In this document: positions 25,286 to 62,148 of the stretch, piece by piece | Numbering within the stretch: position 1 is the stretch's first letter | How the letters are laid out: each line of letters starts with the position of its first letter | Assembly (NCBI RefSeq): GCF_014205135.1 | Contig: NZ_JACHMY010000001.1 | Location: forward strand, 7,502,001-7,566,000 | DNA length: 64,000 nt | DNA from: Kribbella italica | GTDB taxonomy: Bacteria > Actinomycetota > Actinomycetes > Propionibacteriales > Kribbellaceae | Direction: 5' to 3' | The notes under the pieces: generated by a model | Database searches by the model: none | Seen by the model: the letters and a program-made list of their open reading frames with translations, nothing else | Told to the model about the DNA's origin: nothing | Made by a program: the position numbers and the translations under genes

Positions 25286-25804
25286 TTGATCCTTGCCGTA
25301 GTGGCGTGGATCCTGCCGGCGGGGGAGATCAGCGAGATCGTGGTCAGCGGCTTCATGCTGGCCTGCCTGGTCGCGGACGGCATCATCCTGCTGGCCGGTG
25401 ACGGCGTCACCGGCTGGGGCGAAGGCGGGTGGAACGTCCTGCTCCTGGTGTCCGGCGCCCTGGCTGTCGCCGGCGGTGGCCCGCTGACGACGTCAGTCCT
25501 CTCCCTGGTGGACCGCAACAACACCAGGTCCCAGTCGACCCAGCAGGCCGGTGAGGTGCTGCGCGGTGGCGCGCTGATCGGTGCGCTGGAGCGCGGTGCG
25601 ATCTACGGCTCGATGGTGGCCGGCTGGCCGGAGGGACTGGCGATCGTGCTGGCCATCAAGGGCCTCGCCCGGTACCCCGAGCTGCGCAGTCCGGACCAGC
25701 CGGCATCCGTTACGCCGCAGGCGGTGGCAGAGCGGTTCATCATCGGCACGTTCACCAGTGTGCTCTGGTCGGTCACCTGCGCGGGCCTGCTGCTGTCGCG
25801 CTAG
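25286..25804 (+). CDS. membrane protein paired with SatD-like gene
   Basis: The 172-residue protein has four hydrophobic segments (about 2-14, 18-40, 50-70, 150-170) and a central loop GGALIGALERGAIYGSMVAGWPEGLAIVLAIKGLARYPELR. The only standard start in frame is TTG at 25286, but hydrophobic sequence continues upstream (VLALTAAG), so a rare start further left is possible. The same pairing of a SatD-like gene with a membrane gene suggests a joint role. Its stop TAG lies one base before the fold-back element. Confidence 0.7.
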   Translation: MILAVVAWILPAGEISEIVVSGFMLACLVADGIILLAGDGVTGWGEGGWNVLLLVSGALAVAGGGPLTTSVLSLVDRNNTRSQSTQQAGEVLRGGALIGALERGAIYGSMVAGWPEGLAIVLAIKGLARYPELRSPDQPASVTPQAVAERFIIGTFTSVLWSVTCAGLLLSR

Positions 25805-25972
25805 CTAGGGTGTGTCTCTCGATTCCCGCCTACTGCGCGGCACTCGGCACGGCACCTCGAAGCACTGGAGCAAAGACCACGATGGAAGAACATCGAGGCC
25901 TTCACTCCAGCACTCCGAGCTACCGCACCGAGCACCTGCTCGCTACGGCGGGAATCGAGAGACACACCCTAG
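25805..25972. mobile_element. 166-bp fold-back element (MITE-like), copy A
   Basis: Perfect 26-bp terminal inverted repeats starting CTAGGGTGTGTC flank 116 bp of inner sequence that also folds on itself almost to the apex. There is no transposase frame. A second copy lies at 61983-62148 with the same 166-bp length (TA to TA). The right end lies in the stop codon of the minus-strand RDD gene, and the left end follows the plus-strand stop by one base. The element fills the space between two convergent genes and could serve as a terminator for both. Confidence 0.8.
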
Positions 25973-26595
25973 AGCTTGATGACGATGTCCGACGCGACCT
26001 TGTCGTGCCAGGTCTGGTGCTTGTCGTCCCACAGCGGCCAGAGCACGTTCAGGAAGCAGATGTTGTTGAAGATCAGCGCGCAGAGCTCGCGGCCGAAGGT
26101 CCGGCCCACACCGATCAGCTCGCCGGTCTCGGGGGAGACGATCTTGAGACCGACGACCTTCTTGCCCAGCGACTGACCGGTGCGGCCCTGCCGGATCACC
26201 CGGTTCCAGATCTGGTAGACGATCGAGGCGAGGTACCCGATCACCATCGCGGCACCGCCGGCGTCGCTCATCTCCTCCAGGTCGCCGCTCAGCGCGAGCG
26301 CGGTGATCGCGCCGGCCGCGATCAGGACGATCGCGAGGAGTGAGTCCACGATCGACGCGAGCACCCGGGAGCCCCAGCCGGCGAGCTGGCCCGGCAGCGA
26401 GTAGTTGTAGCCGTAGCCGCCACCACCGCCGGAGTAGGGGTTGTAGCCCGGCTGCGACGGGTTGTACTGCGGCGCGTAGTTGCCCGGCTGGTTCGGGTAC
26501 GACGGCTGGTTGGGATAGCCCGGCTGCTGCCCAGGAACGGCCGGGTACGGCGGCTGGTCCTGCGGGCGGTTCGGGTCGAACGGAGGGGTGCTCAC
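25969..26595 (-). CDS. RDD family membrane protein 1
   Basis: The 208-residue protein has a disordered Pro/Tyr/Gln/Asn-rich N-terminus (about 1-70), then an RDD domain: GWGSRVLASIVDSLL (Arg and first Asp), two membrane helices, RQGRTGQSLGKKVVGLKIVS and WPLWDDKHQTWHDKVASDIVIKL (final Asp-Asp and Asp). RDD proteins are thought to help transport at the cell membrane; the substrate is unknown. GTG at 26595 has AAGGA six bases upstream. Its TAG stop is the terminal TA of the fold-back element. Confidence 0.9.
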   Translation of the reverse strand: MSTPPFDPNRPQDQPPYPAVPGQQPGYPNQPSYPNQPGNYAPQYNPSQPGYNPYSGGGGGYGYNYSLPGQLAGWGSRVLASIVDSLLAIVLIAAGAITALALSGDLEEMSDAGGAAMVIGYLASIVYQIWNRVIRQGRTGQSLGKKVVGLKIVSPETGELIGVGRTFGRELCALIFNNICFLNVLWPLWDDKHQTWHDKVASDIVIKL

Positions 26596-26681
26596 GACAG
26601 TCCTTTCTACGACACCGGCGAGGACAGCAGAACGCCGTGGCCTCGACAGGCCACGGCGCTCGGAACGCAGACGGTACGAGG

Positions 26682-27542
26682 TCAGAGCTTGACGACGTAC
26701 GTGGTGTTGATCTTGTCCGCGAAGGTCTGCTTCTTGTCGTCCCACAGCGGCCACAGGTAACCCAGGTAGCACGGCAGGGCGTCCAGGATGTGGGTGATCT
26801 CGCGCAGCAGCGCCTTGCCCACGCCGACGTTCTGTCCGGTGTCGGCGGAGACCAGCTTGAGGCCGAGCGCCTTCTTGCCCCAGCTCTGGCCGGTCTGGCC
26901 CTGCAGGACGAGGCGGTTGTAGATCCACAGACCCAGCGCGACCAGGCTCAGCAGCAGGCCGATGATCGTCGTCCCGGCGCCGCCGTCGCCCACGCCGGAG
27001 ATCAGGTTCCCGATCCAGGACGGGATCGCGATGATGATGCCGTCGATCAGCGAGGCGCCCACGCGGACCGGCCAGGTGGCCAGTTCACCGCCGGGGTTGC
27101 CGTAGCCGTAGCCGCCGTAGGGCTGCGAGCCGTACGGCGTCGCGCCGCCCTGCGGGTACGACGGGTAGGAGGACCCACCCGGCTGGCCCGGCTGCTGACC
27201 AGGCTGCTGGCCGTACTGGCCGCCGCCCGGCTGACCCGGGTACGCACCCGGCTGCTGCGGCTGCCCGTACTGACCGGGCTGCTGGCCGTACTGCCCGGGC
27301 TGCTGCCCGTAGTCCGGCTGCTGCGGCTGACCGTACCCAGGCTGACCCGGCGGCTGACCGTACCCAGGCTGCTGGCCGTACTGGCCCGGCTGACCCGGGT
27401 AACCGCCGGGCTGGTCCTGGGTCGGCTGGCCGTACTGGCCCGGCTGCTGACCGTACTGGCCCGGCTGGTCCGGCGTCTGATCCCCGTTGCCCTGGTTCGG
27501 GTCCTGGGGGTCGAAACCCGGTGGTGGCGTCGGAGTGCTCAC
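26682..27542 (-). CDS. RDD family membrane protein 2 with long PQG-rich tail
   Basis: The 286-residue paralog has about 150 residues of repeated [14 protein letters not shown] units, then the RDD domain: [42 protein letters not shown] and [25 protein letters not shown]. The tail should be disordered and cytoplasmic. It lies 86 bp upstream of the first RDD gene on the same strand and both start with the residues STP, so the pair arose by duplication. The start is GTG at 27542. Confidence 0.9.
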
Positions 27543-61490: not shown

Positions 61491-61985
61491 ATGGCCTTCG
61501 AGATTCCGCAGGACCTGCACCCCGACCTGATGCCGCTCGCCTGGCTGCTCGGCCGGTGGGAGGGCCGCGGGCACGGCGACTACCCGACGATCGAGAAGTT
61601 CGAGTTCGGGCAGCAGGTCGACTTCAGCCACAACGGCAAGCCGTACCTGCACTACGTCAGCCAGACCTACGTGGTCGGTGAGGACGGCACCAAGCAGCGC
61701 CCGCTGGCCGTGGAGACCGGCTTTTGGCGGCCCAAGCCGGACAACAAGCTCGAGGTCGTGCTGGCGCACCCGACCGGGTTCGCCGAGATCTGGTACGGCG
61801 AGATCGAGGGCGCCAAGGTCGAGATGCGGACCGACGTGATCGCCCGCACGGCCACCGCCAAGGAGGTCGCCGCCGGCCACCGCCTCTACGGCCTGGTCAA
61901 GGGCGAGCTGCTCTGGGCCTACGACATGGCCGCGGAAGGCCAACCGCTGCAGCCCCACCTCTGGGCCACCCTCGTCCGGGTGTAG
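61491..61985 (+). CDS. nitrobindin-like FABP family protein (DUF1794)
   Basis: The 164-residue beta-barrel protein has WLLGRWEGRGHGDYPTIEKFEFGQQ, the nitrobindin GxWxGxGxGxYPTI motif, and ends HLWATLVRV. Relatives bind heme and scavenge peroxynitrite. The TAG stop coincides with the terminal TAG of fold-back copy B. Confidence 0.9.
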   Translation: MAFEIPQDLHPDLMPLAWLLGRWEGRGHGDYPTIEKFEFGQQVDFSHNGKPYLHYVSQTYVVGEDGTKQRPLAVETGFWRPKPDNKLEVVLAHPTGFAEIWYGEIEGAKVEMRTDVIARTATAKEVAAGHRLYGLVKGELLWAYDMAAEGQPLQPHLWATLVRV

Positions 61986-62148
61986 GGCGTGTCTGGCAAT
62001 TCTCGCCTACTGCGCGGCACTCGGCACGGCACCTCAGCGCACTGGAGCAAAGACCACGATGGAAAAACATCGAGGCCTTCACCCCAGCACGCTGAGCTAC
62101 CGCACCGAGCACCTGCTCGCTACGGCGGGAATTGCCAGACACGCCCTA
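61983..62148. mobile_element. 166-bp fold-back element (MITE-like), copy B
   Basis: Terminal inverted repeats of 25 bp start TAGGGCGTGTC, with one mismatch between arms. The inner sequence is nearly the same as copy A (25805-25972), in the same orientation and of equal length. The left TAG is the stop codon of the nitrobindin-like gene, and the right CTA is the stop codon of the minus-strand response regulator. Arm differences from copy A are matched on the opposite arm. Confidence 0.8.

Follow-up and report, generated by a model that had tools for sequence, protein, structure and literature searches.

The window analysed here, a stretch of 64,000 nucleotides from the genome of Kribbella italica, harbors two copies (A and B) of what we consider, with a probability of about 0.55, to be a non-autonomous mobile fold-back element of Kribbella whose folded single strand, either DNA or an RNA that is copied, is joined at replication forks. 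The mobile form would be the folded single strand, which would be distinguished from its complement by an asymmetric core of GTGC·GTGC wobble modules, and its joining at forks would cause the orientation of the copies to follow the fork. The paired arms would be needed for the fold and would mark each insertion, and the cores would be partly homogenised between copies. In comparison with an earlier sequence-only reading of this DNA, the orientation of the element relative to replication is the new observation.

Copies A and B

The features of both copies are collected in Table 1. The sequence-only reading had described them as 166 bp long from TA to TA, which holds for both; the limits that it gave for copy B (61983-62148) are exact, and those for copy A (25805-25972) are one base too wide on each side, the actual positions being 25806-25971. 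Its description of two fold-back copies with covarying arms was borne out, the arm differences that it named being compensated in the opposite arm, and the inner mismatches do become G·U pairs on the minus strand, where 11 such pairs occur in the fold of each copy. When folded as RNA, the minus strand of copy A reaches -138 kcal/mol (z -17.8; none of 200 shuffles as good), in comparison with -102 kcal/mol for the plus strand. The minus strand of each copy contains seven GTGC and no GCAC, and six of the seven GTGC in copy A face another GTGC.

Table 1. Features of copies A and B (positions in the window) and members of the second family (positions in the genome named; G000, host genome)
Feature	Position	Strand	Remarks
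Copy A, fold-back element AGGG...CCCT	25807..25970	-	164 bp; stably folding strand is minus; from fold, alignment and empty-site comparison
Copy A core	25828..25949	-	122 bp; conserved blocks, GTGC·GTGC wobble modules, inner stem, loop; from alignment
Copy A outer arm, 3' arm on minus strand	25807..25827	-	21 bp; outer pairs all Watson-Crick
Copy A outer arm, 5' arm on minus strand	25950..25970	-	21 bp; insertion 3' of CT
Copy B, fold-back element AGGG...CCCT	61984..62147	-	164 bp; stable strand is minus; empty site in G004 without duplication
Copy B core	62005..62126	-	122 bp; from alignment
ORF upstream of copy A	25286..25804	+	TAG directly before the element; convergent neighbour
Convergent ORF at copy A	25969..26928	-	TAG stop composed of the ORF's own T and the element's AG
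L212	G000 4025883-4026048		second family
L213	G000 1043513-1043678		second family
L214	G000 530812-530976		second family
L210	G020		second family
L068	G024, site A		second family

Distribution of the Family

The host genome is a single contig of 8,885,108 bp, in which a genome-wide BLAST search revealed 22 full or near-full copies together with fragments. A covariance model built from these 22 copies brought to light, in the host, one further member of 100 bp, three elements belonging to a second family and a 54-bp remnant. A 28-base core pattern was found in 14 stretches of species-genome contigs, all of them from Kribbella, and BLAST gave a match in 35 of 36 other genomes of the genus and in one of 21 outside it, the latter being weak. 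In the model search, all 38 genomes of the genus among the matches listed carry matches, some of them weak, and weak matches at E <= 0.001 appeared in 46 genomes outside the genus, 391 having been searched in the order. Relatives or simply long hairpins could lie behind the matches outside the genus, given that even genuine full-size copies score 76 to 107 bits on their wrong strand with the model. No match to the element was obtained in the plasmids, phages and viral contigs searched, and no paper on it was found in searches of the open-licence literature.

Shorter family members (L112-L121, L129 and L131), whose measured cores are 42 to 59 bp long, possess the same conserved blocks, and several short members have a core C-G pair swapped to G-C on both arms. 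The 54-bp remnant (L127, 3148-3201; G000 8653147-8653200) consists of two arms with GCCGTAGCG between them, and lone AGGGYGTGTCT-like ends without a partner (L122, L123, L124, L125 and L126) are possibly remnants.

Fold, Covariation and Strand Polarity

Across the host's 22 copies, pairing holds in 99.4% of 1415 cells, and double-sided changes occur in 22 of 65 pairs. The covariation lies above both kinds of control: the doubly changed cells number 117, whereas shuffling leaves 32.6 and sliding no more than 15. The score amounts to 0.260; shuffling gives 0.103, with none of 500 shuffles reaching the observed value, and sliding gives no more than 0.054. In all 115 long elements the stable strand folds better than its complement, with RNA and with DNA parameters alike, the means of the DNA folds being -76.6 for the stable strand and -61.9 for the other strand; a DNA hairpin therefore fits as well as an RNA hairpin. 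About half of the host subfamilies (L051-L055 and others) have the terminal loop GCGAAGC or GCGCAGC, and such loops are known to form unusually stable mini-hairpins in DNA.

On the stable (minus) strand, the first 20 arm pairs comprise 2346 Watson-Crick, 56 G·U, 10 A·C and 48 other pairs, as counted in 123 of the 125 distinct elements of the host and its relatives, two with broken arms being left out. The G·U polarity hence holds in the variable arms too. Across more than 100 copies the arms covary and do not mismatch at random, an outcome that would have refuted the sequence-only reading. The usual mutational asymmetry is C-to-T on the leading strand. Within the window, the position of dnaA makes the plus strand the leading one, and the GC skew of this strand is slightly positive; C-to-T changes there would yield A·C, not G·U, on the minus strand, and the G·U excess thus appears to go beyond mutation bias alone.

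Orientation Relative to Replication

In ten complete genomes, 137 of the 139 places among the matches listed share one orientation relative to dnaA, in which the stable strand is the leading-strand template, that is, has the sense of the nascent lagging strand, and the weaker-folding strand is the lagging-strand template. The counts per genome, likewise among the matches listed, are 22/22 in G000, 17/18 in G002, 7/7 in G004, 24/24 in G012, 17/17 in G013, 15/16 in G014, 11/11 in G016, 6/6 in G024, 4/4 in G028 and 14/14 in G035. The binomial p is 2.8e-38, a value that assumes independent places, which these are not fully, nine orthologous pairs being present among the 125 elements. The origin was placed at dnaA and the terminus at its antipode; dnaA was found in 11 complete genomes, of which G029 was left out, and G019 and G031 were also left out of the orientation count. 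The 139 places comprise the 22 host copies and 117 rows from nine genomes among the matches listed, six rows having been dropped since they repeated places in the count, four as second pieces and two as weaker reverse matches.

The two exceptions among the matches listed, at 2770215 in G002 (L182) and 647878 in G014 (L173), are one orthologous insertion, whose region may have been inverted. L173, L182 and L103, the last a minus-strand copy, represent one insertion common to three Kribbella species. In the host, the orientation rule is also obeyed by four additional members that are 100 bp or longer (at 5413684, 4025883, 1043513 and 530812). With 43.4 vs 41.8 bits, the 54-bp remnant at 8653147 is close to symmetric; by its residue it appears to lie the opposite way, which counts against the folded-strand explanation.

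According to a codon model, both flanks are confidently coding for 86 of 124 elements; relative to the stable strand, the flanking genes are antisense on both sides in 31 cases, convergent in 24, divergent in 16 and sense on both sides in 15. Because these directions are mixed, transcription does not account for the orientation, which follows replication and not the transcription of the neighbours. The result bears directly on the sequence-only reading, in which the minus strand is transcribed and its RNA hairpin is the selected function (a regulatory RNA, a 3'-end protector or a terminator), spread by transposition. The minus-strand fold is indeed favoured, as that reading held, and the predominance of G·U over A·C in the variable arms, the conserved tandem U·G/G·U pairs and the 27 elements that lie directly after a same-sense stop codon are compatible with such a function. 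It is nevertheless an unlikely explanation, as orientation tracks replication instead of neighbouring genes, the sites turn over between species, and no family of Rfam 15 reaches its gathering threshold, the matches being weak, generic microRNA-hairpin models only (best 59.9 bits vs a threshold of 168).

The same orientation could be left by survival bias, if insertion occurred both ways and a copy was lost or deleted where the lagging-strand template carried its more stable hairpin. The position of the weaker-folding strand in that template and the difference between the mean DNA folds agree with this idea, which we consider decidedly unlikely all the same: a graded effect would hardly be expected to be as strict as the 98.6% among the matches listed, the fold is strong on either strand, and the rule extends to eight short members whose two strands differ by only -0.3 to 6.8 kcal/mol, although these could be deletion products of long copies.

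GTGC Modules and a Second Family

The stable strand of the 116 long cores carries on average 6.66 GTGC and 0.43 GCAC, and in the folds of the 115 long elements 656 of 778 GTGC lie opposite another GTGC, which gives rise to tandem U·G/G·U pairs. The arms are symmetric and the core is asymmetric, so that only the core can reveal the orientation. Since the ends are symmetric, the direction comes from the core, and the asymmetry of the core becomes structure only in a folded single strand, we infer a single-stranded intermediate at the forks; against this, the direction of the core could be read by a double-strand-binding protein. It is scarcely credible that the element is a polar motif of the chromosome, comparable to KOPS, Chi and Ter, retained for the host and with the GTGC repeats as its directional signal, which would suit the orientation rule and the surplus of GTGC over GCAC, because the sites are mostly not common to species and a motif acting in double-stranded DNA needs no pairing arms with a G·U bias.

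A second family (L210, L212, L213 and L214) has a different core sequence and the same build, with GTGC facing GTGC; each element contains 6-7 GTGC, of which 4-6 face another. The stable and the other strand fold at -151 and -120 kcal/mol in L212, -135 and -95 in L213, -130 and -105 in L214, and -122 and -90 in L210. The orientation rule holds for the three copies of this family in the host and for the one at site A of G024. Second-family elements occupy site A in G024 and the site of the host copy L043 in G020, and the two families accordingly use the same gene junctions in different species. Both families might tentatively be placed in a superfamily of mobile hairpins whose folded single strand, recognised through GTGC·GTGC, is joined into nascent DNA at forks without a Y1 transposase or RVT_1, a possibility to which we give clearly less than even odds; the orientation would be kept since the piece would stay in the sense of the nascent lagging strand.

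Mobility and Insertion Sites

The element family is mobile, since 12 of 13 host sites are without the element in the relative G006, the thirteenth (L039) not having been placed. At site A, 24 relatives of the same genus were compared, with both flanks matched in 23 and only one in G008; the element is absent from 22 of the 23, and G024 has its second-family element at that very site. Comparison of A with G006 and of B with G004 gave empty sites of equal length without duplication; at B, L038, L047 and others, G006 holds 44-55 bp of other intergenic sequence. Target-site duplications of 2-9 bp were not above shuffles in 116 flank pairs.

On the stable strand, the element is inserted 3' of CT, and the junction often falls precisely within a stop codon. 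Before the 116 elements there is C in 71, T in 77 and CT together in 54, CT before the element occurs together with AG in 22 of 116 flank pairs, and TA or CTAG is present at many junctions. Among the confident neighbours in the sense of the stable strand, 27 of 44 end in a TAG made of their own T and the element's AG, and on the other side the stop overlaps the element end by one or two bases in 25 of 67 antisense neighbours. The G006 empty sites of A, L038 and L047 carry TGA at that stop, the one at site A being the stop of the convergent ORF.

Arms and Cores

The 125 distinct elements display 112 different 20-nt 5' arms. In 119 within-genome pairs the cores differ by 1.5% and the arms by 28%, a contrast exaggerated by selection of the pairs for at most three core differences, and 591 of the 707 differences in the 5' arms are exactly compensated. 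L054 and L052 have identical cores and five arm differences, all of which are compensated, and the orthologous L136 and L174 have arms identical over 22 pairs and cores differing at 9 of 121 positions. Since orthologous arms are rather stable and identical cores within a genome can carry different arms, slow compensatory change at individual sites does not by itself account for the covariation among copies.

Some cores are nearer to other copies than to their own ortholog: that of L137 shows no difference to copies in its own genome and 11 to its ortholog, that of L136 three to other copies vs nine, and that of L017 one to a copy in another genome and 13 to its ortholog. Hence the cores seem to be partly homogenised between copies, and the arms seem to mark the insertion. 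The cores of L103/L173/L182, L029/L030 and L106/L107 are closest to their own orthologs. In L136/L174, L137/L110 and L017/L024 the orthologs agree better in arms than in cores, which hints at gene conversion of the core.

Search for a Mobilising Enzyme

The profile Y1_Tnp (PF01797) has no match in the host genome and matches 5 of 14 control genomes. RVT_1 was not found in 13 of the 14 Kribbella genomes searched, with one interrupted match in G028, and a retroelement with an RVT_1 enzyme (a group II intron or other) is thereby unsupported; the enzyme may be a divergent reverse transcriptase. The surroundings of 20 single ends, partial cores and remnants contained shorter members, fragments or lone end motifs, and no autonomous copy with the conserved blocks around a gene. 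Reading the internal GTAG in terms of REP/RAYT was rejected, as the host is without Y1_Tnp and a C-to-G change in the core, which makes the local hairpin weaker, is matched by a compensating change on the other side of the long stem.

The missing enzyme counts against the folded-strand explanation, as does the stable strand lying in the opposite template from that of IS608-like hairpin insertion into the lagging-strand template. An ordinary MITE of a DDE transposase, with IS5- or IS630-like ends, a TA or CTAG target and an orientation imposed by contact between transposase and replisome, would explain the terminal inverted repeats and the TA/CTAG junctions, and PMC5371812 reports that the orientation of Tn7 and several IS families depends on the fork. 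We hold this identity to be very improbable, as no target-site duplication was detected and two end-motif searches of the host genome yielded no full-length element or insertion sequence bounded by this pair of ends; all that they gave were pairs spaced by about 166 bp and the 54-bp remnant, in keeping with the sequence-only reading, which had not attributed the arms to transposase ends alone. Furthermore, the arms vary among copies, and, the ends being symmetric, a transposase that works on a double strand could take the direction only from the core.

Significance and Comparison with Known Systems

Replication-coupled mobility of single strands is best documented for Y1 transposases. The combination of near-absolute fork polarity, insertion-specific paired arms and partly homogenised cores, with no Y1_Tnp found in the host, points to an unrecognised enzyme or a host-driven route, and a superfamily of hairpins joined at forks would, if true, constitute a new route of replication-coupled mobility. 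Nature has, with these copies, also provided experiments on how long hairpins fare at forks, and the copies mark the direction of replication in Kribbella.

IS200/IS605 elements make no target-site duplication, a trait that the Kribbella element appears to share, and palindromic non-autonomous derivatives of them exist. The Kribbella element further resembles IS608 and ISDra2 in an orientation that follows replication and in hairpins of one strand, traits described in PMC5371812 and PMC6006769, the orientation of IS200/IS605 following replication through the lagging-strand template (PMC5371812). In contrast, the host has no Y1_Tnp, the whole Kribbella element is one hairpin whose stable strand is in the leading-strand template, and the target appears to be CT instead of a defined tetranucleotide. 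REP, BIME and REPIN sequences, as described in PMC3733652, are likewise intergenic palindromes in many copies, with G·T pairs in their stems and a GTAG motif, and G·T pairing is described there for GTAG repeats. REPs, however, are 20-40 bp long with an unpaired terminal GTAG and come with a RAYT, whereas the Kribbella element is 164 bp long with GTAG inside the stem region, in a host without Y1_Tnp.

Tn7 has distinct ends and makes a target-site duplication. Its TnsE pathway has a strong bias of insertion orientation relative to replication, as stated in PMC5371812, and the Kribbella element is similarly biased, but Tn7 is double-stranded. Prokaryotic DDE MITEs are also short, non-coding and present in many copies with terminal inverted repeats; unlike them, the Kribbella element has no target-site duplication or autonomous partner found in the host, and it is further set apart by its near-absolute replication polarity and by variable paired arms around a constant core.
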